From Apteryx mantelli (lineage: Eukaryota; Chordata; Aves; Apterygiformes; Apterygidae), in the NCBI RefSeq assembly GCF_036417845.1, contig NC_089981.1, positions 513,501 through 577,500 of the forward strand: a stretch of DNA of 64,000 nucleotides, read 5' to 3'. Under the pieces are notes generated by a model. The model saw only the letters and a list, made by a program, of their open reading frames with translations, was not told the origin of the DNA and did not search any database. Position numbers and translations under genes: made by a program. Position 1 is the first letter of the stretch, and each line of letters begins with the position of its first letter. This document shows, piece by piece, positions 20,153-61,063 of the stretch.

Positions 20153-23100
20153 GATTCAGAAAGGTACTTAATTGTTAGAAGTGATTTTAGGTGGACTTTT
20201 AACTGGTTGTATCTGCAACTTCTATCCTGAAAGACTGTGTTCCTCTGCTGCTGAAAGCTGGAGGAATCCTGACTTTTAACTTGCAAGTTCCAAGCACAAA
20301 CAAGACTCCTGCCTGAGGAGTGCGTGGCACAGAATTGCAGTTCTCTGTTCTATTAGGAACGTTTGCTCATGTAGGAAAACCACCAGTCTGTCAAGATGAG
20401 AAAAAGCTTTCAGAGATATTCAAGAGGAGAAAAGCAATGTGATTTGAATTTATGGCCATTTCTGCTACGTCTTCAGTATTTGAAAGGAGTAGCCTCTTCC
20501 AGTGCAACACACAGAACCTGAAGTTCTGGAAAGGAAATCTTGGAGAACAGACACCCATGTTTTTGCCCCCCAAACACTAGGGAAAGTAACTGTCCCTCTC
20601 CTGTTAAATCTCCCTCTTCTGTCACTCATTACTACCTCCTTTTTCCCCTTCTGCCTGGAAACATGAAAAAACTACAGAAATGCAAAAATGATTGACTTCT
20701 AATTTTGCTACCATTGTAAAGTAACAAGAACTTGTTCCTGCTTTTCATCTCCACATATCAGCAATCCACTTGAGGCAACTGAGTGAATTGGTGGTTATTT
20801 TAAGGACATTGGACATAATTTGAAAGTTAATCAAGCTGCAGTGTTGTTTCACTTAAAAAAATGCTGAAATAAGATGGTGACTTGCCAACTACATGTCTGT
20901 CATCAATGTGGTTTTGAGAATAAATGACCAATCATTTCTGGGAGATGAGAAAGTTGGGAAAGGCTTTGGAATCCTTTTATCAATTCAACTAAGCTAGCTC
21001 TAAGGATAGGTGTTCTATCACTAGTAGATGTTTCATCGCTTCTGGCTGAGTTTACAAATGCTGTCCCTCAGTTGGCAGAAGGAGTTGAAATCTTTATTGA
21101 GCTGAAAGTGACAGAATTAATCTCAGACAGGAGAGAGGTTCCTGCGTCTGCATAAGGTTTACAGTCAAAGGGGGATGGAAAGAGGTCTTGCGGATTCCCT
21201 TTGCATTTCACTGCAAGCCTGTTAGGGCTGTTATTTCCCCTGACTTCCTCTCCTTAAAGCTGTGCATAACTCTAGCAAAGATTGTGTCCCTGTGATCATC
21301 TATGGCACCCTAAAGAAGGATTTTACAAGTGTCTTTTCTTCAAACTGCTGCCAGCATATTTTACAGAAAGGTGATATGACTGTGAAACATCATTATTTCT
21401 GCCCAAAGACACACGGCTGGGGAGAAAACTTATCTTCAGTATGTTATAGTCTGAATTTTGATCAAGTAGTGATGATTAAAGGCCATCACTATCTCAGAAG
21501 CCGTTTATCTCAGTAACGCTAAAATTAGAATATGCACGGGGCAGTAAAAGCATTTGGACTATATGCACTATTATCCCACTGGCCTGACGGTCCTAAAATG
21601 CAGGAAAAAGAATGTGAAAATGTAGCCGTTTGGTCCTGCTAGTTGTCATCTTTCTGTTGCTGCAGAGGCTGAAGCTCAAGGTTTATCTCTTGTTTCTGAT
21701 TATTAAGTATCATCAGATATGTGAAGTTCACAGTTTTTACACGTATCAATGTTGCGTTGTTCTTATCTTGAACAGAGATGTGAGATTTTTAAATCAGATT
21801 TCTGAGGTGTCCAAATTGTCTCTTTCAGTGGACTCCCAGCTCAAAGGAAGGAAATAGCTTGAAAAGAAATCACAGGCATCATTTTACTTTACTGTGTATG
21901 TTTACAGGTCTCTGGGAAGAGCAATGTACAATACTACTCTTCCAGAAAAAGACAGGTAGATCGCCATCAAAGAGCTTCCCTGCACAGCAATGAGTCATGT
22001 CTGCACACCTCTCTCTGCGCTGATGTTTAAGATGGTCAAAGCCATCTAGAGCTAAGCATCAGCAGAACCGGCAGCATGTTTCAATCAAGAATCACAATCT
22101 CAAACCTAAATATGCTTTCTGACAAATATCATCAAAAAGAACAGATTTTCATAAGCCTCGCATTCATCTAAGTCCTGCATTCACCTATCCCTTAGTCTCC
22201 ACCTCGAGAAACCCAGACAAAATTAGGGAATTTAAAATGTTAAAGAGCTGCTGTCTCTTCAAATCTACAGTTTGCTTTTCTAAGAAAGCCTTCTGATCCA
22301 CCATCCAGAATCCTGTTCCTCTTCTTTCCTTCCCCAAATCTCAGTTCCAGGAGGAGATTTGGGAAAATCCCTGCCTTGAATCACTTGTCATGACAGCAAT
22401 GCTAAAGTAAGTCTATTTGCGGTAGAACAGCATTGCCCAGTCTTAGGAGGTCCTAGGGGCATTTGGGGGTTTCCCTGCTGCAAACAGCTGAGGAAAACTC
22501 GATGAATCAAGAACAGTACTGTTAAGAATTTTAGGGAAATTTTCAGTGTTCAGCTAGGAATTAGGTTATATCTTATGGAGTATGGAGAGATATTGGATCT
22601 CCATATTTCCACTGAGATGCCTATTCCTTAGACTTTTATAGTGTAAAGCACCAGACGACTGGCCAAAGTATGAAACTTCATCCAGTCTCTAAATAAAGCG
22701 GTGAAAAATGTCCTGATAATTGAACTGGAATGTGGCTCCAACATTGACTATGGTATTTAACCGTGCTTGGATTGCTGCTCTGATAGATTACAAAGCTCAG
22801 CTATGACATAAGGTCAAGGCCTTGGAAAGGTGTTAGCAGAGCTCCTTTAAATGAAGCATTCCCAGAGACACCAGGTTGGCACAGACTGATGAAAATCGGA
22901 GTGAATGCCTGGCATCGGGGAACGACCTCTGTGTCCATCAGTGTTCCTGGGAGCCTTGGAAAGCCTAGTACAGTGTATGTCACCCTTCACTGTAAGGCAG
23001 ACACCTAGTACAGCATCCTGCTCCTCTCATGCTCCTATTTTACCATGCAATGAATCTCAGTCCCCTCAAAGGTCTCTTGCTGTCTTCAGCAGCTCTCTCA

Positions 23101-39540: not shown

Positions 39541-40494
39541 ATGAGTGCTAAAACTACATCAACCTTCCTTCCAAATACAACCAGCCTGGCTCATGGAGCT
39601 AATTACAGTGGGACTGTGCAAAAGGCAGAGCCGTCATATGCTCTCCTCAAGTTCATGGAGAGCTTCTGCCTCATCAGCTCTGCCTGTGGCATGGTGGGAA
39701 ATGGCATGGTCCTGTGGTACCTTGGCTTCCGCATCCGGAGGAACCGCTTCACTGTCTACATCCTGAACCTGGCTGCCGCTGACTTTGGCTACCTGCTCTG
39801 CATCGCCATCGAAACAGTTCAGTACCTGATGCAGTTCAATGTGGGAGTGCAGTTTGGGATATTCCTCTTCCTGGATCTTTTCACGTACGGAACTGGCTTG
39901 TATCTCCTGACAGCCATCAGCATTGAGAGGTGCCTGTCTGTCCTCTGTCCCATCTGGTGCCGAAGCCATCGCCCAAAGCACTTGTCCAGCATCATCTCTG
40001 GCCTGCTCTGGAGCCTCTCGCTGCTGCTGAACATGCTGGGGTACATTTCTTGCACTGTTCGCCCCTCTAGCAACTGCCACATACTCCTCATCACCATTGG
40101 AGTCCTGGACTTCCTCTTCTGCACGCCCCTCATGCTGGTATTCAGCCTCACCCTCTTCCTCAAAGTCAAGTGCAGCTCCCAGCACCTCCAAACAGGCAGG
40201 CTCTTCACCGTGATTATGCTCACCGTCCTCTTCTTCCTCATTTTTGCTGTTCCGCTGAGTGTCCTGATCCTCTTTGACTTCTGGGGCTATAAATTTCTCT
40301 ACTCCCCAGAGATTGGTTTTGTGCTGTCCTGCGTCAATAGCAGCCTCAATCCAGTTATTTACTTCATCGTGGGCAGCTACAGGGATCGGAGGATTCGGCT
40401 CAACCTCAGGCTGGCCTTCCAGAGGGCCTTTAAAGATTCGGCAGATGACAAAGATGAACGGGAAACCCACGAAACAATAAGTATGTCCTCTTAA
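39541..40494 (+). CDS. Mas-related GPCR, tandem copy 1, 317 residues
   Basis: This is a rhodopsin-class receptor of the MRGPR/MAS1 family, at the plasma membrane and by family precedent in sensory neurons or mast-cell-like cells. MRGPR hallmarks are GMVGNGMVLWYLGF (TM1, 50-63), FTVYILNLAAADF (TM2, 70-82), ERCLSVLCPIW (129-139, replacing DRY) followed by RPKHLSS, SLNPVIYFIVGS (268-279) in TM7, and a helix-8-like RLAFQRAF (290-297). N-glycosylation sites are at 12-14 (NTT) and 21-23 (NYS). I chose the ATG at 39,541 because an acceptor ends at 39,485 and the usual family N-terminus is short. An in-frame ATG at 39,415 lies on the intron side of that acceptor. Candidate poly-A signals are at 40,848 and 40,873. 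It is nearly identical to the gene at 45,385. The exact orthologue (MRGPRH-like or MAS1-like) needs a tree. Confidence 0.92.
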   Translation: MSAKTTSTFLPNTTSLAHGANYSGTVQKAEPSYALLKFMESFCLISSACGMVGNGMVLWYLGFRIRRNRFTVYILNLAAADFGYLLCIAIETVQYLMQFNVGVQFGIFLFLDLFTYGTGLYLLTAISIERCLSVLCPIWCRSHRPKHLSSIISGLLWSLSLLLNMLGYISCTVRPSSNCHILLITIGVLDFLFCTPLMLVFSLTLFLKVKCSSQHLQTGRLFTVIMLTVLFFLIFAVPLSVLILFDFWGYKFLYSPEIGFVLSCVNSSLNPVIYFIVGSYRDRRIRLNLRLAFQRAFKDSADDKDERETHETISMSS

Positions 40495-45384: not shown

Positions 45385-46314
45385 ATGCTCTCCTTCCAAA
45401 GCAGTTCAAGCCTGGCTGAAGGGACTAATTACAGTGGGACTGTGCAAAAGGCAGAGCCATCATATGATCTCCTCAAGTTCATGGAGAGCTTCTGCCTCAT
45501 CAGCTCTGCCTCTGGCATGGTGGGAAATGGCATGGTCCTGTGGTACCTCGGCTTCTGCATCCGGAGGAACCGCTTCACTGTCTACATCCTGAACCTGGCT
45601 GCCGCTGACTTTGGCTACCTGCTCTGCATTGCCATCGAAACAGTTCAGTACCTGATGCAGTTCGATGTGGGAGTGCAGTCTGGGATATTCCTCCTCCTGG
45701 ATCTTTTCACGTACGGGACTGGCTTGTATCTCCTGACAGCCATCAGCATCGAGAGGTGCCTGTCTGTCTTCTGTCCCATCTGGTGCCGAAGCCATCGCCC
45801 AAAGCACTTGTCCAGCATCATCTCTGGCCTGCTCTGGAGCCTCTCGCTGCTGCTGAACATGCTGGGGTACATGTCTTGCACTGTTCACCCCTCTAGCAAC
45901 TGCCACATACTCCTCATCACCATTGGAGTCCTGGACTTCCTCTTCTGCACGCCCCTCATGCTGGTATTCAGCCTCACCCTCTTCCTCAAAGTCAAGTGCA
46001 GCTCCCAGCACCTCCAAACAGGCAGGCTCTTCACTGTGATTATGCTCACCGTCCTCTTCTTCCTCATTTTTGCTGTTCCGCTGAGTGTCCTGATCCTCTT
46101 TGACTTCTGGGGCTATAAATTTCTCTACTCCCCAGAGATTGGTTTTGTGCTGTCCTGCATCAATAGCAGCCTCAATCCAGTTATTTACTTCATCGTGGGC
46201 AGCTACAGGGATCGGAGGATTCGGCTCACCCTTCCAGGCTGGCCAATCCTTGAAGATTCAGCAGATGACAAAGATGAATGGGAAATCCACAAAACAATAA
46301 CTATGTCCTCTTAA
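45385..46314 (+). CDS. Mas-related GPCR, tandem copy 2, 309 residues, altered C-tail
   Basis: This is a paralogue of the gene at 39,541, in the same orientation, 5.84 kb away. From NYSGTVQKAEPSY onward the two proteins align without gaps through all seven helices: GMVGNGMVLWYLGF, FTVYILNLAAADF, ERCLSVFCPIW at 123-133, NPVIY at 264-268. By hand I count about 16 base differences in ~800 bases, about 10 of them changing a residue (for example A/D before TM1, N/D and F/S near ECL1, R/H in ECL2). After RRIRL the tail differs. The RLAFQRAFKDS of copy 1 is replaced by PGWPILEDS through a +2 and a -8 base change that together keep the frame. The start at 45,385 follows the acceptor ending at 45,320 and matches the position of the copy 1 ATG. 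It is open and plausibly functional. Helix 8 is the weak point. Confidence 0.9.
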   Translation: MLSFQSSSSLAEGTNYSGTVQKAEPSYDLLKFMESFCLISSASGMVGNGMVLWYLGFCIRRNRFTVYILNLAAADFGYLLCIAIETVQYLMQFDVGVQSGIFLLLDLFTYGTGLYLLTAISIERCLSVFCPIWCRSHRPKHLSSIISGLLWSLSLLLNMLGYMSCTVHPSSNCHILLITIGVLDFLFCTPLMLVFSLTLFLKVKCSSQHLQTGRLFTVIMLTVLFFLIFAVPLSVLILFDFWGYKFLYSPEIGFVLSCINSSLNPVIYFIVGSYRDRRIRLTLPGWPILEDSADDKDEWEIHKTITMSS

Positions 46315-48441: not shown

Positions 48442-48700
48442 AATCACAGAATCACAGAATGGCTGAGGTTGGAAGGGACCCCTGGAGATCATCTAGGCCA
48501 ACCCCCCTGCTCAAGCAGGGTCACCTAGAGCACGTTGCACAGGATTGTGTCCAGGCGGGTTTTGAAAATCTCCAGAGAAGGAGACTCCACAACCTCTCTG
48601 GGCAACCTGTTCCAGTGCTCTGTCACCCTCACAGTGAAGAAGTTTTTCCTCATGTTCAGATGGAACTGTCTGTGTTTCAGTTTGTGCCCATTGCCTCGCG
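48442..48700 (-). mobile_element. Young CR1 LINE 3' end, minus strand
   Basis: The plus strand starts with the reverse complement of the CR1 terminal repeats (AATCACAGAATCACAGAA) and continues back through the 3' end into the last codons of the reverse-transcriptase ORF. It matches the plus-strand CR1 at 50.75 kb at about 97% over ~255 bases by hand count, so both belong to one recently active subfamily. It is truncated at its 5' end near 48,700. Confidence 0.95.
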
Positions 48701-50749: not shown

Positions 50750-51690
50750 AGAACTTCTTCATCAATGACCTGGATGAAGGGACAGAGTGCACCCTCAGCA
50801 AGTTTGCTGATGATACAAGACTGGGAGGAGTGGCTGATACGCCAGAGGGCTGTGCTGCCATTCAGAGAGACCTGGAGAGGCTGGAGAGGTGGGCGGAGAG
50901 GAACCTCCTGAAGTTCAACAAAGGCAACTGCAGGGTCCTGCACCTGGGGAGGAATAACCCCACGCACCAGTACAGGTTGGGGGCTGACCTGCTGGAAAGC
51001 AGCTCTGCGGAGAAGGATCTGGGAGTGCTGGTGGACACCAAGTTAAGCATGAGGCAGCAATGTGCCCTTGTGGCCAAGAAGGCCAATGATATCCTGGGGT
51101 GCATCAGGAAGAGTGTTGCCAGCAGGTGGAGGGAGGTGATTCTCCCCCTCTACTCAGCCCTGCTGAGGCCACATCTGGAGTACTGCGTCCAGTTCTGGGC
51201 TCCCCAGTACAAGAGGGATGTGGCACTGCTGGAGCAAGTCCAGCGAAGGGCTACAGAGATGATTAGGGGATTGGAGCATCTCTCTTATGAGGAAAGGCTG
51301 AGAGGTCTGGGCCTGTTCAGCTTGGAGAAGAGAAGGCTGAGAGGAGATCTTATCTCTAACGTGTACAAGTATCTGAAGGGAGGATGTCAAGAGGATGGGA
51401 CCAGACTCTTTTCAGTGGTGCCCAGTGACAGGATGCGAGGCAACGGGCACAAACTGAAACACAGACAGTTCCATCTGAACATGAGGAAAAACTTCTTCAC
51501 TGTGAGGGTGACAGAGCACTGGAACAGGTTGCCCAGAGAGGTTGTGGAGTCTCCTTCTCTGGAGATTTTCAAAACCCACCTGGACACAATCCTGTGCAAT
51601 GTGCTCTAGGTGACCCTGCTTGAGCAGGGGGGTTGGACTAGATGATCTCCTGAGCTCCCTTCCAACCTCAGCCATTCTGTGATTCTGTGA
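50750..51690 (+). mobile_element. CR1 LINE, 5'-truncated, with open reverse-transcriptase C-terminus
   Basis: This is the 3' portion of a CR1 non-LTR retrotransposon. The frame is open for about 285 codons from the truncation to the stop at 51,607-51,609. It begins [20 protein letters not shown], where FADD is the catalytic motif of the reverse transcriptase. It continues through [33 protein letters not shown] and [19 protein letters not shown]. The 3' UTR follows, ending with TTCTGTGATTCTGTGA at 51,675-51,690. The endonuclease and N-terminal reverse transcriptase are missing, so it cannot move by itself. The open frame and clean 3' end point to a young insertion. Confidence 0.95.
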
Positions 51691-51894: not shown

Positions 51895-52135
51895 GATCCA
51901 CGCACCAGCCAACCCAGAAAGAGTAAGGGAGAAACAAAGGAGGGAAGGATTGAGGGCAGGAGCCAAAAAAAAAATAGAAAGTCTGGAGAGCTGGATGGAG
52001 AGGCAGAGAAATGCCCTTTCAGCCCTGCAGCAACAGGCAAGTGCCAGTGCCAGGAAGAGAGGTGACCCTCCCAGCAGCTACTGGGAAGACAGTGAGATAA
52101 GGTGCTGTGGCTGGGAGCTGAAAGCTTTCTCAGAA
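51895..52135 (-). repeat. Module B, outlying copy (MRGPR upstream-type segment)
   Basis: Read on the minus strand, this segment aligns with the plus-strand segment at 57,540-57,740. Shared words include AGGTCACCTCTC.TCC, CTGGCACTTGCCTGTTG, GCATTTCTCTG, TCCAGCTCTCCA, TTCCCTCCTTT and AGCTGGTG-like TTGGCTGGTGC. It is more diverged than the palindrome arms. No receptor gene is joined to it now. It may mark an older duplicated MRGPR unit broken by later rearrangement. Confidence 0.65.
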
Positions 52136-52139
52136 GCAC

Positions 52140-53029
52140 TAGGGTGAGAGGCCTTGCATGGCACTGCGTAAGGGGAGCGAGGCATCCCCAGTGTGGGGCG
52201 AGACGGTGGTGGGGAAGAGATTTGGCACAGGGACAGGAGGGGGGCTGATGGCTCAGCAGGAGCTGTGTGCTGCAGCCACATAGGGAAGGGAAAAGCTCCT
52301 TACAAGCACCTTTCTCTCCACTGCCTGTACAGGCAGCCTAGGGCAACTAACTCATCTGGAGATGGCCATCTTGGGCGAAAGCTGGGAGAGATGAGTTCCC
52401 CCTCCAGCCCTCTGGGGACAGCGATGGAGAGGCTCAGGGTGTAGGTGAGGAATTGGTGCTCTTCTCTACACACACAGAAGCACCACGCATCACTCCAGGA
52501 CCCCTGTGTGTTGATCAGAGCAGCCGTGGCACCAGCTGAATGGTCCCCTAGGTGTTCAGGCCTGAAGGATGTTTCTATACAAGCCCAAAACAGCCAGGAT
52601 GAAACTCATCCCTGCTGAGAATGGCCTCCCAGGAGCTGCCAGAATGCACTGGAGTCCTGCAGGCTTGGCCTCAAGTCAAAGTGAGGGAAAAGACTCCCTG
52701 TAAGGTTCAGGGTCCCAAAGACATGCCCAACATCCTGGGTCACTCTTCCTCCCCTCACTCTGCATGCTCTGCATAGCCATGCTCTGTGCACCATGTCCCC
52801 TTCCACAAGGGGGGGACCACGTAATGAGAAGAGGCACTGGCATGGTGTGCAGACAAGGATCGCTCTCACCCAGCTCCCTGGTCCCCAGCACAGCCCTGCT
52901 CGGAAGGGGCACATCACCAGCTGAGCTGCTCCCACCGCAGTGGAGATGCCCTGGCTCCGCTGGGGGCTGAGCACTGCTGCCCACCTCCCCTCAGTCCCCT
53001 CTGCAGGCTGCCCCACTCTCCCACACCTC
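52140..53029. other. GC-rich intergenic, no gene seen
   Basis: No supported ORF. The part nearest 53 kb may be a diverged 3' flank of the MRGPR fragment that follows, but the match is weak. Confidence 0.35.
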
Positions 53030-53222
53030 CTCGCCAGCAGGGATTTATACAGCAGTCTCTGCAGCAGTGTCTCTGGGCACTTAGCTTCCTTCTCCGCACA
53101 TTGCTTTCTCTGCAAACGCTTGTCAGAAGGTGACTTTCCCAGAGCCATGGAGCCGGTGGTGACAGTTGCTCCTGCCCAGGAAGTAAATGACCGGGTTGGT
53201 GCTGCTGTCCCAGAGAGATGAG
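53030..53222 (-). pseudogene. Truncated MRGPR 3' end
   Basis: This is a remnant of a Mas-related receptor, minus strand, aligned with the last ~60 codons and the stop region of the gene at 54,763. It reads STNPVIYFLGRSN in TM7 (complete genes: SINPVIYFLVGSC), then GSGKVTF against GSVKVAF, followed by a premature TGA. Past this the DNA still matches through the TTTGCAGAGAAAGCAA region and the CCAGCAGGGAT sequence beyond the stop. An extra C near 53,210 shifts the frame upstream of TM7. The homology ends near 53,222, where unrelated module A sequence begins. It shows that at least three genes of this subtype once lay here. Confidence 0.8.
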
Positions 53223-53249
53223 CCAGGGACCATCAAAAATGGGAATTTA

Positions 53250-53460
53250 CCAATGTTCGGCATGCAAGAGAACAAGGGCTTCATCCACTGATTCTAATCC
53301 CATTCCCGGCATGAACATGTTGCCTCAGAGATTACATGTCGTGGAGTACAGAGGGCTGCAAATGAGCTTTTCTCTGCAAGAGATTCTTGTCTCACAGAAT
53401 CTCATCCATCAGCTTTATGGAGACTGCATCTTTACTGCTCACTTGTCTTTCCTTCCCTTC
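53250..53460 (+). repeat. Module A, left copy
   Basis: It aligns with 57,225-57,420 in the same orientation. CACTGATTCTAATC, CTCAGAGATTACATG, GTGGAGTACAGAG and TTCTTGTCTCACAGAATCT correspond to CACTGCCTCTAATC, CTGAGGTTATGTT, GTAGAGTACACAG and TTCCTGTCTCACAATCT. It is diverged by perhaps a quarter. Its nature is unknown, possibly part of the duplicated flanking sequence of this MRGPR subtype. No coding potential is supported. Confidence 0.65.
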
Positions 53461-54340
53461 CTTCCTTTCCTTTACTCCTTCTTTCTGAGGTGTTTCCTGG
53501 GGAAAGACGGAGATCTCGAGAGGCTGCACACACACTACATGTGCCGCAGGCCCTCCTCACCCCCCCAGCACAGCAGCGCCATGGGAGAAGTGGGAAAGGC
53601 ACCAAGACAGGAAACAAGGGCAGGCAAAGGAGAGCACCACCTTCCCTGGCAGGGGCTGCTCTGCAGAGTGAGGGGGACATGCCCAGGCTGGGGGAGAGAA
53701 GACAAAGACCTCTGAGTGAGGGCTGCACACTTCTGTGGGAGCGGAAGAGGGAATACTTCTTCCCTGCTTTAAATTTGACAAGGACACACCATCAGAAAAA
53801 GACGTGATCTGGGGGCAGGTTCAAAACAGCTCTGGGGACTTTCTCATACAGCCGGTCACTGCCCGTGGAAATCACAGCCGTGGGGTGCTGAGGGTGCTGG
53901 ATGTGTGCGAGAGGCCCAGACCCTGCCTGCCGAGCTCAAGGGAGAAAGACCCCGGGACATCTTCACAGGGGTGTGTGCGCAGCCAAGGAGGTGCCAGAGG
54001 TGCAGAGCCGGGCAGACCACAAGAGACGGCCTGCAAACTGACCCCCAGCCGTGCTGCTGGGGCCAGGGCCTGCCTGCAGTGAGCCAGCCCAGCCGCTCAC
54101 CTGCTCTTCACGCCAGCAAAGGGGGGCTGCAGCGGAGAACCCCGTGCCGGGGCAGCAGGGTGGGCACAGAGAGCAGCTCTCGCAGCAGACGCTGCTCCCT
54201 GGGCCCGAGGGAGGTGACCGCTGACCAAATGCTGACCCAGCTGCATTTCTGCTTCCTGCTGGCAGGGTTCCCCTCCATTCTTGCTCAGCCTTTCACTTCA
54301 GCACAGGGACAGCAGGAAGAGGCAATCCCCCTCTGGTGGT

Positions 54341-54370
54341 CCACCACCACCACCACCACCACCACCACCA
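54341..54370. repeat. (CCA)10 trinucleotide array in left arm
   Basis: Ten CCA units. The mirror position in the right arm has eight TGG units, a two-unit length difference between otherwise almost identical arm segments. Confidence 0.95.
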
Positions 54371-54528
54371 TGTGTTGGCATTGCCGCTTTCACCCTGCCT
54401 GAAAACTTGCTTCCCCGAGTTGGCCAAAGCTCCACCAGAGCCTTCCTGTGAATGTGGCTCACTTCTCCTGAGCGAGAGAGTCCCAAGAAGACCACAAGGG
54501 CTTGTTTGCTGGCAGAAGAAAGCCAAAG

Positions 54529-54534
54529 TTTATT
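54529..54534 (-). other. Poly-A signal (AATAAA) of the left-arm MRGPR
   Basis: AATAAA on the minus strand about 230 bases past the stop codon, at the mirror position of the same signal in the right arm. Confidence 0.65.
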
Positions 54535-54762
54535 AGGCGAGGACCAGGACCGTGGTGGAGGTTGCAAAGGGGAATACAGGCAGTGCTTGGGGACCAAGTC
54601 CAGCAGAGCAGCACTATGCCAGGCTTGTGGCCCTGTCCCCACACCCAGCTTTGGTCACCTCCCTGGCAGCAAGAGGGCCACAGCCATGGCGTGGGGCTCT
54701 CCGTCTCCTCCCGGGCTGCCTGTGGAGATCAGCATCTCCACTCCTGCCTTGCCAGCAGGGAT

Positions 54763-55740
54763 CTACACAGTGGTCTCCACAGCAGTGTCGCCGGGGCCTT
54801 GGCTGCCCTCCTCACATGTTGCTTTCTCTGCAAACACTCGCCGGAAGGCCACTTTCACAGAGCCCTGCAACCGGCGCTGACGGCAGCTCCCGACAAGGAA
54901 GTAAATGACAGGGTTGATGCTACTGTTCAGAGACACCAGCAGGTAAGAAATATAAAGGTAAAATATGTTTAAATCAATCACAGGATCTAGGAACATCACT
55001 GCAGTTAAAGGAAACCCAAAGGCAAAGAAGAAGAGCACATTGAGCAAGATCGCAACAAACAGTCTCCCAGGGCGACGCCTCTGTGAGCCATATCGAAGTC
55101 TGATGAACAGGGTCAGGTTGGAAAGGAATGGGAAGAAAGAGAAAATGAAGAAATTCACAATGCCTAGTTGTAGAAATATATGTCGACAGTTCATACGAAA
55201 GGGGGAATAACAACCTAGAAAAACCAAGCAAACAAAAAGTCCAGAAAGAAACCAGATTACCCCACATACAATTCCAGACAAGCACTTTGGGCGACGGCAT
55301 CGGTACCAGATTGGGAATAAAACAGACAGACACCTCTCCATGCTCATTGCTGTCAGGAGATACATGCTGTTAAAGTACCACAAGAGAAACAGATGCATCA
55401 GGAGATATTTGGAAAAGATATAGTTATATGATGGAGAACAAGAGATTTTTATAACCATGTCTAGTGATAATATAACAAGAAGAAAGAGGAGCAAAGAGAA
55501 GTCGGTGATGGCCAGGTTCAGAATGTAGACAGTGAAGGGGCTCTTCTTCATGTGAAAGCCCAGGAACCACACAACCATCCCATTCCCCACTAGCCCACAC
55601 AGAGAAATACCAGTAGAGACACTTGAAATTATCACCATCCTGTAATCGCTTATGCACGGAGTTTCTGCAGTCCTCTGAGAGTTTGTGTATCCTGTGGCCG
55701 TGTAGCTCAGAGAAAGGGCTGTTGTGTTGGTGTCCACCAT
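54763..55740 (-). CDS. Mas-related GPCR in left palindrome arm, 325 residues
   Basis: This is a rhodopsin-class receptor of the MRGPR family. It starts MVDTNTTALSLSYT with an NTT glycosylation site at 5-7. Helices are TM1 about 35-61 (ISLCGLVGNGMVVWFLGF, 45-62), TM2 71-95 with FTVYILNLAITDF, TM3 ending in MERCLSVLFPIWYRC (134-148, the family form of DRY), TM4 155-176, TM5 186-212, RRRPGRLFVAILLNVLFFFAFGFP (split 221-244) at TM6, and SSINPVIYFLVGSC (273-286) in TM7. The long C-tail has KVAFRRVF. The ATG has a good context (TTCACCATGG). A splice acceptor (CTCTCTCCTAG on the minus strand) ends at 55,796, 55 bases 5' of the ATG. It is head to head with the gene at 59,116. The N-terminal 19 and the last ~55 residues are nearly identical between the two, while TM2-TM3, TM4-TM5 and TM6-TM7 differ widely. 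The ligand is unknown. Confidence 0.93.
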   Translation of the reverse strand: MVDTNTTALSLSYTATGYTNSQRTAETPCISDYRMVIISSVSTGISLCGLVGNGMVVWFLGFHMKKSPFTVYILNLAITDFSLLLFLLVILSLDMVIKISCSPSYNYIFSKYLLMHLFLLWYFNSMYLLTAMSMERCLSVLFPIWYRCRRPKCLSGIVCGVIWFLSGLFVCLVFLGCYSPFRMNCRHIFLQLGIVNFFIFSFFPFLSNLTLFIRLRYGSQRRRPGRLFVAILLNVLFFFAFGFPLTAVMFLDPVIDLNIFYLYISYLLVSLNSSINPVIYFLVGSCRQRRLQGSVKVAFRRVFAEKATCEEGSQGPGDTAVETTV

Positions 55741-55795
55741 GGTGAAGCCCCTGCTGTCAGTGTCGTCTTGTCCCTCTCCCCTCTCCCGCCACCTC
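55741..55795 (-). promoter_or_regulatory. 5' UTR part of coding exon with splice acceptor
   Basis: Polypyrimidine followed by CCTAG just above 55,795 is a convincing acceptor on the minus strand. The same sequence occurs in the right arm, where the exon begins at 59,061. The rest of the arm out to 56,686 is then intron or promoter. The first exon was not located. Confidence 0.6.
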
Positions 55796-56689
55796 CTAGG
55801 AGAGACAAGGAAGGAGAGAGGAGATCAGGAGCATCAGCACTCCCAGCACTCGCCTTCCCTCCCCACTGCCCCACGCCAAGCCCTGGGCTGGGGCGGGAAG
55901 GACCACCTCCCCCTGCGAGTGACTGGGAAAGGCCTGGAGAGAGCCTGTCTTGGGGCAGCAGGGAGAGGTGGAGACAGGCTGCAGGTCCAGGGCAAGAGAC
56001 ATCTGGGAGAAAAAGAGAGACAGAGAGCGGTGGGGACGGGGTGGAATCGCTGCAAATAGGGGATGTCAAAAAGGAGGGGTCAGGGAGAAGGGGAGAGCAT
56101 GGGAGAGACCAACTTGCCCCGGAGCAGGAGTGGGCACTGAGGACAAAACCCCACTGAGCAAAGCTTCCCTTCCTCCCACCCATGCCTCGCACCCCAGCAG
56201 AGAGCCTGGGGATGACCTCGCTACTGCCTCCCCAGCACCCCCCACCACTCCAGACCCCTCCCTGGCCAGCAGGCATTGCTCACATGCCCGTCCCCGGCCT
56301 CCTACCTCCTGGCACTCCTCAGAAATGCCTGCTCCCCCCTGGGAGCACCAGCACATGGGGCGGGGGGGCCTCTGCCATGCCAGCACCCCCCAGGAGAAAT
56401 GGGCAGCTCACGGCAGCCAAGGCCACCCAGCTCTGCTTCTGCCTCCTCCCTGGCACACGAGATGAAAACCGCCAGCCACAGATCACTTTGCATGAGCAGC
56501 AGACTCTCCTCACAATCTCATCACACCACTGACAACTTCCCCTCACATGTCCTATGTCCAGTGATCTTGTCAGTAAAAGTTGGCCACATCACCCCCTTCC
56601 TCTTCTCTATCCTTCTTCCAGCTTCATCTCTCCATGTTGGGGACTTCTGGGTTTAGCTGTGCCCTAATCGGTGCTGGAAACCTTTCACA

Positions 56690-56950
56690 TTTCATGGCCA
56701 TCCTCACAGCTTGCATTGCTTTTGGGAATTGCAGCACAAGAGCTCCAGAGAAAGCCTGATCCTGGAGAATGGTCAGGACAAGAAGGAGACATGATGAAAG
56801 AGGAGGACTGGGCACCACCTGATTCAGCGAAAGAGGGATGGGGAATAAAGGAAAGGAGGGAAGCATGGAAAGTTGTATTAGGGTGAGGGCACTGGCATGG
56901 AAAGAGGTGATGGTGGGGAAGATATTTGGCAGGACACGAGGGTGGCAGGA
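56690..56950 (-). repeat. Module B, left spacer copy (decayed inner arm)
   Basis: Read on the minus strand this aligns with plus-strand 57,620-57,805. TTTCCATGCTTCCCTCCTTT, CATGTCTCCTTCTT and AAGCTGTGAGGATGGCC correspond to nearly the same words on the right. It directly continues the left arm inward but at much lower identity, so it is an older layer of the same inverted repeat. Confidence 0.75.
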
Positions 56951-57224
56951 AGGTGAGAGCAGGGGAGATGAGCCAGTGTCCCTCAACAGTGGGGAAGGAC
57001 CAGCAGAACCCCCTCAGGAGTCCATCATATGGCCCATCGCCTTAATGCTCCTTTTTACTTCCCATCATTCCTCACATGCAGAATCACTCCCCATCATACC
57101 AATCCCCGCCCCAGGCAACACCACACACCCGCTCCCTTCCTTGGGATGCCAACATTGGCTCCTCAACAGCAGCCAAATAAGGCAGAGCACTGGCTTAGTC
57201 TCACCTTGCTGTGGGATGTCACCA

Positions 57225-57420
57225 GAGTTCAGACACACCAAAGCACAAGAGTTTGTTCACTGCCTCTAATCACATCTGGCATGCATGTGCCTCCTCTGAG
57301 GTTATGTTTTGTAGAGTACACAGCGCCACAAGTGTGTTTTTATCTACAAGTGGTTCCTGTCTCACAATCTTATCCCTCAGCATCAGAGACTGACATCTTC
57401 ACTGCTTGCTTTTCTTCCAC
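57225..57420 (+). repeat. Module A, right (spacer) copy
   Basis: Direct-orientation partner of 53,250-53,460 (see shared words there). It lies at the centre of the palindrome spacer and has no inverted partner, which marks the symmetry break of the palindrome. Confidence 0.65.
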
Positions 57421-57539
57421 TTTCGTGTATATTTCCATCTTCTTCTTTCCACTCCCCTTTCATAGTGCCATGCAAGTCCCCACACTCTTATGTTTTTGAG
57501 AAAGCTTTTGGTTCCCAGCCTTGGCCCTTTTTTTCACTC

Positions 57540-57805
57540 TCTGTCTTACCAGGAGCTGCCATGAAGGTCACCTCTCCTCCCTGGCACTTGCCTGTTGTTG
57601 CAGCATTTCTCTGACTTCCTGTCCAGCTCTCCATTCTCTGCACTCCTTACAGAATCTTTCCATGCTTCCCTCCTTTCCTTTTTCCCCAACCCTCTTTTGC
57701 TAGATCAGCTGGTGCTCACCCCTCCTCCTTTCACCATGTCTCCTTCTTCACCATCTTCCATGCCAAGGTTTTCCATGCAGGCTGTGAGGTTGGCCGTGCA
57801 ACAGT
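57540..57805 (+). repeat. Module B, right spacer copy
   Basis: Inverted partner of 56,690-56,950 and also related to the minus strand of 51,895-52,135. It lies 1.3 kb upstream of the right-arm receptor, in the orientation and order expected if module B is part of the ancestral 5' flank of this MRGPR subtype. Confidence 0.75.
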
Positions 57806-58169
57806 ATGATTGCAAGGATGCACAGCTGAGAGTGATTTATGTACCCTTGTGCATTGACAGACAACTTTCCCTGTGCAGTCATGTGGTGATGCTGGGAAGT
57901 AACAGAAAAACATGTTACTCTGCAAATCTGACCCCAAGACTTCACTGTCTGGGACAATATTCCCCTTACATACCTCCCACTTTGTGCATGAACAGTTCAG
58001 GCAGCATTGTCCCTAATTGGCAGCATGCCCCTTTCTCTTCCTCCGTATCCAAAGAGTTATCCTTAACCTATGGTGACTATACACAAGTTACGTGTTGTAC
58101 ATTCATTGTTTTTCCACACATTAAGGAAAAGTCACTGTCTGGAGGCAAAGTGACCCAGGACAGAATTGG
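57806..58169. other. ~360-bp segment present only on the right side of the palindrome
   Basis: On the left, module B abuts the high-identity arm within a few bases. On the right, ~360 bases lie between them (GGCCGTGCAACAG before, GGGAAAGG after). This is an insertion on the right or a deletion on the left. I do not recognise a transposon in it. Confidence 0.6.
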
Positions 58170-59060
58170 GAAAGGTTTCCAGCACCGATTAGGGCACAGC
58201 TAAACCCAGAAGTCCCCAACATGGAGAGATGAAGCTGGAAGAAGGATAGAGAAGAGGAAGGGGGTGATGTGGCCAACTTTTACTGACAAGATCACTGGAC
58301 ATAGGACATGTGAGGGGAAGTTGTCAGTGGTGTGATGAGATTGTGAGGAGAGTCTGCTGCTCATGCAAAGTGATCTGTGGCCGGCGGTTTTCATCTCGTG
58401 TGCCAGGGAGGAGGCAGAAGCAGAGCTGGGTGGCCTTGGCTGCCGTGAGCTGCCCATTTCTCCTGGGGGGTGCTGGCACGGCAGAGGCCCCCCCGCCCCA
58501 TGTGCTGGTGCTCCCGGGGGGGAGCAGGCATTTCTGAGGAGTGCCAGGAGGTAGGAGGCCGGGGACGGGCATGTGAGCAATGCCTGCTGGCCAGGGAGGG
58601 GACTGGAGTGATGGGGGGTGCTGGGGAGGCAGTAGCAAGGTCGTCCCCAGGCTCTCTGCTGGGGTGCGAGGCATGGGTGGGAGGAAGGGAAGCTTTGCTC
58701 AGTGGGGTTTTGTCCTCAGTGCCCACTCCTGCTCCGGGGCAAGTTGGTCTCTCCCATGCTCTCCCCTTCTCCCTGACCCCTCCTTTTTGACATCCCCTAT
58801 TTGCAGCGATTCCACCCCGTCCCCACCGCTCTCTGTCTCTCTTTTTCTCCCAGATGTCTCTTGCCCTGGACCTGCAGCCTGTCTCCACCTCTCCCTGCTG
58901 CCCCAAGACAGGCTCTCTCCAGGCCTTTCCCAGTCACTCGCAGGGGGAGGTGGTCCTTCCCGCCCCAGCCCAGGGCTTGGCGTGGGGCAGTGGGGAGGGA
59001 AGGCGAGTGCTGGGAGTGCTGATGCTCCTGATCTCCTCTCTCCTTCCTTGTCTCTCCTAG

Positions 59061-59115
59061 GAGGTGGCGGGAGAGGGGAGAGGGACAAGACGACACTGAC
59101 AGCAGGGGCTTCACC
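59061..59115 (+). promoter_or_regulatory. 5' UTR part of coding exon with splice acceptor
   Basis: CTTGTCTCTCCTAG ends at 59,060, a strong acceptor 55 bases 5' of the ATG. It is identical to the left arm, so both receptors probably splice from non-coding first exons located in the arms or spacer. Confidence 0.6.
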
Positions 59116-60108
59116 ATGGTGGACACCAACACAACAGCCCTTTCTCTGAGCTACACAGCCACAGGATACACAGACTTTATGGAAAATACTGAAATTTTAT
59201 GCTCAGTGAGACATTCTGGATTAATGATCTTTGCAGGGGTCTGTATGGGGATTTCTCTATGTGGACTAGTGGGGAATGGGATGGTTGTGTGGTTCCTGGG
59301 CTTTCACATGAAGAAGAGCCCCTTCACCGTCTACATCCTGAATTTGGCTGTTGCTGACTTCTCCGTGCTTCTTCTATCTTTTCTGATTATATTGGTAAAT
59401 CTTTACCTCAAAGCAATCTGTTCTCATCTTCAGAATTATATTCTTGTCTTCTATCTTTTTTTTTTGGCAGGTGCACTTCTGTACTACTTCTTTTATCTTA
59501 CCAGCCTGGGTCTCCTGACAGCCATGAGCATGGAGCGGTGTATCTCTGTCCTCTTTCCAATCTGGTACCGATGCTACCGCCCAAAGCATTTGTCAGGCAT
59601 TGTGTGTTGTGTTCATTGGGCTACTTCTGTACTCTTTACTTCGTTAATGTCTCTTACCTGTAGTTGTCTTCAAGAATTAACCTGTCAGAACGCATTTAAA
59701 GGCATAGCCACTGCAGTTTCAACCATTTTCTCATCACTGGTGTTGGTTTCCAACCTGATCCTGCTCATCAAACTTCGATATGGCTCACAGAGGCGTCACC
59801 CTGGGAGACTGTTTGTTGCGATCTTGCTCAACATCCTCTTCTTCTTTGCCTTTGGGTTTCCTTACAGTGTAGAAATAATACTCAGGGTTGCTTATTCAAA
59901 AGAATTATTTCCTGAAAATCTGTCTTTCTTGCTGGCATCTCTGAACAGTAGCATCAACCCTGTCATTTACTTCCTTGTCGGGAGCTGCCGTCAGCGCCGG
60001 TTGCAGGGCTCTGTGAAAGTGGCCTTCCGGCGAGTGTTTGCAGAGAAAGCAACATGTGAGGAGGGCAGTCAAGGCCCCAGTGACACTGCTGTGGAGACCA
60101 CTGTGTAG
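59116..60108 (+). CDS. Mas-related GPCR in right palindrome arm, 330 residues
   Basis: This is the head-to-head partner of the gene at 54,763. It has the same N-terminus (MVDTNTTALSLSYTATGYT) and the same C-tail from SLNSSINPVIYF onward apart from one G/S change. It shares GISLCGLVGNGMVVWFLGF (45-63), FTVYILNLA (70-78), LLTAMSMERCISVLFPIWY (133-151), LRYGSQRRHPGRLF (220-233) and LFFFAFGFP (241-249). Between these blocks the sequence is very different from the left gene: 20-44, 79-132, 166-219 and 250-274, i.e. the outer part of the N-terminus, TM2-ECL1-TM3, TM4-ECL2-TM5 and TM6-ECL3-TM7. The two proteins differ by five residues in length. The start codon context is TTCACCATGG. All MRGPR hallmarks are intact and it is probably functional with a different ligand preference (inference). 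Confidence 0.93.
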   Translation: MVDTNTTALSLSYTATGYTDFMENTEILCSVRHSGLMIFAGVCMGISLCGLVGNGMVVWFLGFHMKKSPFTVYILNLAVADFSVLLLSFLIILVNLYLKAICSHLQNYILVFYLFFLAGALLYYFFYLTSLGLLTAMSMERCISVLFPIWYRCYRPKHLSGIVCCVHWATSVLFTSLMSLTCSCLQELTCQNAFKGIATAVSTIFSSLVLVSNLILLIKLRYGSQRRHPGRLFVAILLNILFFFAFGFPYSVEIILRVAYSKELFPENLSFLLASLNSSINPVIYFLVGSCRQRRLQGSVKVAFRRVFAEKATCEEGSQGPSDTAVETTV

Positions 60109-60336
60109 ATCCCTGCTGGCAAGGCAGGAGTGGAGATGCTGATCTCCACAGGCAGCCCGGGAGGAGACGGAGAGCCCCACGCCATGGCTGTGGCCCTCTT
60201 GCTGCCAGGGAGGTGACCAAAGCTGGGTGTGGGGACAGGGCCACAAGCCTGGCATAGTGCTGCTCTGCTGGACTTGGTCTCCAAGCACTGCCTGTATTAC
60301 CCTTTGCAACCTCCGCCACGGTCCTGGTCCTCGCCT

Positions 60337-60342
60337 AATAAA
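60337..60342 (+). other. Poly-A signal (AATAAA) of the right-arm MRGPR
   Basis: AATAAA 229 bases after the stop, mirrored at 54,529-54,534. Confidence 0.65.
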
Positions 60343-60500
60343 CTTTGGCTTTCTTCTGCCAGCAAACAAGCCCTTGTGGTCTTCTTGGGACTCTCTCACT
60401 CAGGAGAAGTGAGCCACATTCACAGGAAGGCTCTGGTGGAGCTTTGGCCAACTCGGGGAAGCAAGTTTTCAGGCAGGGTGAAAGCGGCAATGCCAACACA

Positions 60501-60524
60501 TGGTGGTGGTGGTGGTGGTGGTGG
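60501..60524. repeat. (TGG)8 trinucleotide array in right arm
   Basis: Mirror of the (CCA)10 array at 54,341-54,370, two units shorter. It lies downstream of the poly-A signal, so it is outside the transcript if that signal is used. Confidence 0.95.
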
Positions 60525-61063
60525 ACCACCAGAGGGGGATTGCCTCTTCCTGCTGTCCCTGTGCTGAAGTGAAAGGCTGAGCAAGAATGGAGGGGAACCC
60601 TGCCAGCAGGAAGCAGAAATGCAGCTGGGTCAGCATTTGGTCAGCGGTCACCTCCCTCGGGCCCAGGGAGCAGCGTCTGCTGCGAGAGCTGCTCCCTGTG
60701 CCCACCCTGCTGCCCCGGCACAGGGTTCTCCGCTGCAGCCCCCCTTTGCTGGTGTGAAGAGCAGGTGAGCGGCTGGGCTGGCTCACTGCAGGCAGGCCCC
60801 GGCCCCAGCAGCACGGCCGGGGGTCAGTTTGCAGGCCGTCTCTTGTGGTCTGCCCGGCTCTGCACCTCTGGCACCTCCTTGGCTGCGCACACACCCCTGT
60901 GAAGAAGATGTCCCGGGGTCTTTCTCCCTTGAGCTCGGCAGGCAGGGTCTGGGCCTCTCGCACACATCCGGCACCCTTAGCACCCCACGGCTGTGATTTC
61001 CACGGGCAGTGACCGGCTGTATGAGAAAGTCCCCAGAGCTGTTTTGAACCTTCCCCCAGATCT

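Follow-up and report, generated by a model that had tools for sequence, protein, structure and literature searches.

A head-to-head pair of MAS/MRGPR-like receptor genes in Apteryx mantelli, with near-identical flanks on both sides of a strongly diverged core

The window, i.e. the whole stretch of 64,000 nucleotides of Apteryx mantelli DNA analysed here (C4:513501-577500), contains two receptor genes, L and R, placed head-to-head within an inverted repeat, both with an intact reading frame. Table 1 summarizes the features discussed below. A rhodopsin-type 7TM domain was found in L and in R (Pfam 7tm_1, above cut-off). When the two proteins were compared to PDB sequences, the top 17 were all MAS or MRGPR, with E values of 1e-52 to about 1e-37 for L, and 3e-52 to 1e-40 for R. 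Complement/chemerin receptors ranked next (4e-19 for L, 7e-15 for R). We conclude that L and R are nearer by sequence to MAS/MRGPR than to other class A receptors. A structure model was of poor quality (mean pLDDT 47.6), and no claim is based on it.

Table 1. Position of the genes, repeat arms and other elements in the window
Feature	Position	Strand	Description	Basis or comparison
Gene L	54763..55740	-	325 aa, MAS/MRGPR-like class A GPCR	ORF; Pfam 7tm_1 E 2.4e-13
Gene R	59116..60108	+	330 aa, MAS/MRGPR-like class A GPCR	ORF; Pfam 7tm_1 E 9.3e-14
L arm of inverted repeat	53806-56693			
R arm of inverted repeat	58163-61062			
Diverged core of L	54934..55683	-	about codons 20-270	partner of max-chi2 segment via arm alignment
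Diverged core of R	59173..59937	+	max-chi2 segment	246/750 differences
5' arm of L	55741..56693	-		
5' arm of R	58163..59115	+		vs L: 9 substitutions in 953 bp
3' arm of L	53806..54762	-		
3' arm of R	60109..61062	+		vs L: 12 substitutions, 2 indels
Spacer	56694..58162		1469 bp, between arms	
Splice-acceptor-like AG	59059..59060	+	5' of R start codon; putative	read from sequence; identical sequence in L
AATAAA	60337..60342	+	downstream of R	L's own starts at 54534, minus strand
Third receptor copy, partial	53021..53216	-	C-terminal part only, from about L codon 272	78% nt identity
G39	39541..40494	+	related receptor, 317 aa	outgroup
G45	45385..46314	+	related receptor, 309 aa	outgroup

GC content is 0.61-0.62 in the arms and 0.42 in the cores. 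The splice-acceptor-like site and the AATAAA motif both lie in the parts shared by the two genes, so that a shared regulation of L and R is plausible; that such a pair might retain it while ligand binding diversifies, as the annotation proposed, is a hypothesis. Within the spacer, segment 57656-57748 is an inverted match (88%) to 56780-56872, located outside the 99% arms. Two other pieces of the spacer have a counterpart elsewhere in the window: 57212-57416, with 71% identity to 53240-53449 in direct orientation, and 57452-57633, with 73% identity to 51984-52177 in inverted orientation. These three pieces are older duplicated material. Further to the left, segment 51435-51690 is repeated at 48444-48699 (inverted, 97%), and the open frame 51049-51609 resembles the last part of a CR1-type reverse transcriptase.

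Comparison of L with R along the arms gave a very uneven profile. In the 5' flank, 2 of the 9 substitutions are found at the inner edge, and the two indels of the 3' flank are 6 and 3 bp long. The opening 20 codons contain 2 differences and the final coding stretch (59940-60108 in R) contains 3; overall, the R protein differs 36% from L. In a breakpoint scan, the best single diverged segment was 59173-59937 of R, with 246 differences among 750 positions inside, versus 25 among 2132 outside (chi2 of 651.5, versus a maximum of 30.9 in 100 shuffles, these being performed on a coarser grid). The initial annotation of this DNA, made from the letters only, had described near-identical flanks and coding ends around a strongly diverged core, and its R interval is exactly the one recovered by the scan. 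For L, the arm alignment gives 54934-55683, which keeps the proposed end and shifts the start by a few bases (54937 in the annotation). Judging from motifs and the alignment with MAS, the matched ends probably correspond to the outer N-terminus and to TM7 with its tail.

The same contrast holds at silent sites. Codons 1-19 have a dS of 0.07 and codons 271-325 one of 0.05, against 1.07 for the diverged blocks taken together (codons 20-44, 79-135, 158-202 and 248-270); dS is not uniform along arm and core, in line with the annotation. At codons specifying the same amino acid in both genes, silent differences amount to 19/48 in the diverged blocks, 14/81 in the islands and 2/72 in the ends. The core itself is patchy, with dS values of 0.44 in codons 45-78, 0.94 in codons 136-157, 0.15 in codons 203-219 and 0.08 in codons 220-247. 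The initial picture of a strongly diverged core is thus correct, with the correction that the core is not uniform; silent divergence in the TM1-TM2 block (codons 45-78) is likewise real, and the earlier count of about 6 differences becomes 8.0 synonymous differences over 24.2 sites. The term "hypervariable" does not suit a core in which the pooled diverged blocks have a dN/dS of 0.57. This ratio reaches 1.06 in codons 248-270, and 1.4-1.7 in codons 203-247, where it is computed on just 3.5 synonymous differences. In all, silent and replacement divergence peaks sharply between the homogenised flanks of L and R.

We searched the 1.50-Gb genome (408 contigs) for related copies. The L query yielded 126 matches; the R query gave 3747 candidates, of which 121 were scored, 120 of them on C4. 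Besides L and R, a hand count gave 52 L-type places, of which 47 were examined (those near C4 7397334, 10056803, 10947996, 11519249 and 12834896 were left out). The gene-wide alignment comprises 46 copies, L028 having been dropped from the stop and frame count owing to an insertion. All 46 alignable copies are broken: in 45 of them a deletion near codon 41 shifts the frame, and in L034 the damage consists of one stop and a one-base gap. L and R are therefore the sole intact members of their type among the copies examined. More broadly, MRGPR-like units are amplified and dispersed on a very large scale along C4, from about 0.55 to 17.9 Mb; those of the L type that were examined are pseudogenes, and many of the matches of the G39 type have long open frames. 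Of 40 loci retrieved, 38 carry, 3' of the gene, a C-terminal fragment equivalent to the partial third copy of the window, one of the two exceptions being cut too short to show it. The similarity of this fragment begins close to the start of the matched 3' part of L and R. At another locus, L054 (C4:9612300-9617200), a dispersed unit adjoins sequence that has 96% identity to 20190-20916 of the window, indicating that other parts of the window were amplified too.

The copies were then painted using the 250 sites that distinguish L from R (codon numbers of the painting carry a one-base shift). Codons 20-202 were of the L type in all 46 copies, and codons 248-270 of the R type in 38 of them, the R-type tract extending from about codon 206 to 270 and the switch from L to R type occurring at about codons 204-214. 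The eight copies that are L-like in codons 248-270 are L021, L034, L035, L036, L050, L051, L052 and L056. A small L-like patch, at codons 233-247, is present in 9 of the 38 chimeras (L004, L005, L007, L017, L019, L039, L040, L043 and L044). Over codons 220-270, R differs from the R-type tracts of the copies by 2.3% on average. What first looked like a third core type at codons 248-270 was an artefact of gaps in a fixed-length alignment, as the letters themselves and a free alignment give the R type. The presence in the copies of L-type codons 20-202 together with an R-type tract implies that both core types predate the amplification, and the location of this tract within L-type copies implies that exchange into the core happened at least once. 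A second locus with R-type codons 20-202 was not found among the 121 matches scored of 3747 candidates.

One copy extends further than the gene. L034 (C4:1962500-1968500) is collinear with window positions 52389-58354 at 96.5%, and contains the L gene, the entire spacer and the initial 192 bp of the R arm. Sites 4 and 7, at the inner edge, carry R-specific letters common to the window locus and L034. Sites 25 and 179 read alike in both arms of one locus but differently in the two loci, and a fifth site varies solely in the R arm of L034. Sites 25 and 179 are a mark of concerted evolution, consisting of two sites in 192 bp. From this comparison, the mirror arrangement, including the inner R arm, is older than the copies.

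A phylogeny of the core, separate from the flanks, had been suggested by the initial annotation with other avian receptors; we ran it with receptors of the same genome, namely L, R and seven others (G39 and G45, four receptors of C4:588-614 kb and one of C3). L and R came out as sisters, with supports of 100/99 for the whole core and 97/98 for the diverged blocks alone. The AU test rejected the grouping of R with k592 (p 0.0146), k607 (0.0175), k612 (0.0062), G39 (0.0028) and k588 (0.0096), these tests having been picked after the tree was seen, and in the presence of long branches. The core tree thus agrees with an old L/R duplication rather than with a swap in which a sampled cluster gene was the donor. 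Other pairs of related receptors have profiles of their own. G39 and G45 are the reverse of L and R: their coding regions are 95% identical (39566-40494 versus 45391-46314, up to the stop codon), and no similarity between their flanks was detected by BLAST. L060 and L061 (C4:607500-608900 and 612500-613900) are related receptors in tail-to-tail orientation; their identity is 94% across 1061 bp and drops to 74-80% in a stretch of about 100 bp. No close relative was confirmed in viral contigs.

Two options had been put forward in the annotation for the diverged core: either conversion homogenised the flanks and spared it, or one core was swapped in. According to the second, the R arm would be a plain inverted copy of L, whose core was later overwritten from another family member. 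Tracts do move within the core, since 38 of 46 otherwise L-type copies carry the R-type one, and the G39/G45 pair, with near-identical coding regions in unrelated flanks, is what core-limited exchange predicts. However, the R-type core and the inner R arm both predate the amplification, the sampled cluster genes are rejected as partners of R, and the low-dS islands within the core are not expected from a single swap. Nor was a donor found among the 121 matches scored of 3747 candidates: besides R, only C-terminal pieces (from codon 197 on) exceed 74% identity to R. A swap from one of the five cluster genes sampled therefore fits worse than a spared core (AU p values of 0.003-0.018), and, although the AU tests on these five genes are compatible with a lost or unsampled donor, we regard a swapped core as unlikely.

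The dispersed copies also give a scale against which the similarity of the flanks can be read. Over flanks and coding ends, L and R differ at 17 of 1527 positions (1.1%), versus a mean of 3.2% between L and the copies (minimum 2.4%, n=47), and of 3.7% between R and the copies (minimum 2.95%). The ranks are reversed over codons 21-202, where L and R differ at 191 of 546 positions (35%), versus a mean of 5.7% between L and the copies. By bootstrap, L was nearer to R than to any of the 47 copies in 99.4% of 1000 column resamples of the flanks, and in the core (codons 21-202) the distance from L to R exceeded that from L to its farthest copy in 1000/1000 resamples. The margin is narrow for the 3' flank alone (1.26% between L and R versus 1.67% for the nearest copy) and wide for the 5' flank, where L and R are identical over 348 bp and the nearest copy differs by 3.2%. 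We conclude that the flanks of L and R are nearer to each other than to those of any examined copy, a single partial counterpart of the R arm having been found, and that the core is indeed older than the flank similarity, as the annotation had proposed. Of the flank changes private to one arm, R has 11 and L has 2. GC-biased conversion, suggested by the GC-rich arms, was discarded: 8 of the 11 changes private to R run from G/C to A/T.

The reversal bears on the idea that no exchange took place, purifying selection holding flanks and ends while the core is free to change. The splice-acceptor-like site and the AATAAA motif, lying within the arms, speak in its favour, but the same flanks differ from the copies by 3.2% on average, and the difference between core blocks and coding ends, about twentyfold, concerns silent sites; this makes uneven constraint very improbable. 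An assembly artefact, in which a collapsed or misjoined repeat made the mirror arms, is equally improbable: the abundance of similar units on C4 is the kind of setting where assemblers err, but L034, at 1.96 Mb, repeats the order up to the start of the R arm, and an error would not yield a second intact receptor with a protein so different from the first.

We therefore favour, as the probable history of the locus, an old head-to-head duplicate pair in which arm-to-arm gene conversion homogenises the flanks and coding ends, largely sparing the core. Three observations lead to this choice, the age of both core types relative to the amplification, the concerted sites in one copy, and the pairing of L with R in the core trees; the older inverted homology just outside the arms also counts in its favour. 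L and R would have begun as an old pair of MAS/MRGPR-like genes. Conversion between the arms would have maintained the near-identity of the 5' and 3' flanks, codons 1-19 and the last 55 codons, or established it recently, and the core (codons about 20-270) would have stayed mostly separate for much longer. Inverted arms 1.5 kb apart may pair readily, one arm being copied onto the other. In the flanks and coding ends, conversion would meet near-identity and pass through; in the core, it would either meet about 35-45% mismatch, or give products that erase the difference and are lost to selection. Occasional entry into the core would account for the low-dS islands, and for the R-type tract in the copies. 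We infer that the exchange was gene conversion rather than crossover, and that it was repeated. The sparing of the core would reflect either selection against conversion or a block by mismatch, the dN/dS values being compatible with both. A bolder extension, to which we give little credence, is that the mirror pair acts as a long-lived receptor shuffler, its two cores having a promoter and a tail in common: conversion would now and then move a whole TM6-ECL3-TM7 module between receptors, the chimeric copies being fossils of such a move, so that new ligand-binding combinations might arise at the locus.

The L/R pair is a compact natural case, in which silent divergence rises about twentyfold across sharp boundaries on either side of a receptor core, and in which fossil copies date both core types relative to the flanks. 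With it, one can ask directly which of the two, selection or mismatch, arrests conversion between duplicated receptor genes. Caution is called for as well, as trees built from the flanks or gene ends would wrongly make L and R recent duplicates.

Several known systems resemble this pair in part. In the human red/green (LW/MW) opsins, introns are homogenised by conversion and one exon is kept different (PMC3924837). Both cases concern duplicated GPCR genes with homogenised non-coding sequence and a coding part that remains different, which in opsins is attributed to selection against conversion; this selection is documented for opsins, whereas it is inferred for L and R. Moreover, a single exon stands out in opsins, whereas in L/R it is nearly the whole core, within an inverted repeat, and with silent sites near saturation. 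In Caenorhabditis, inverted gene pairs keep palindromic intergenic DNA at about 98-100%, and one pair is 59.6% identical overall and 100% identical over the first 297 nt (PMC1803023). Like L and R, these are divergent paralogs in which the inverted repeat runs into the start of the coding sequence and the remainder diverges. They belong to a different gene family and organism, and in the cases considered here only the 5' side is kept, whereas both sides of the core, including the 3' flank, are kept in L/R. The sauropsid "MRGPR1" group shares with L and R the MAS/MRGPR sequence family and local duplication (PMC6504862); the passages on this group mention neither conversion nor mirror pairs. Palindromes of mammalian sex chromosomes are also reported to have inverted arms whose similarity is maintained by arm-to-arm conversion; these are much larger than the L/R repeat, which is short and has a diverged core. 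Within the terms and papers searched, no literature pairing MRGPR with gene conversion was found. The logic is thus known from opsins and Caenorhabditis, and what appears to be new in the L/R pair is the homogenisation of both sides of the core in one inverted repeat, accompanied by dated fossil chimeras.
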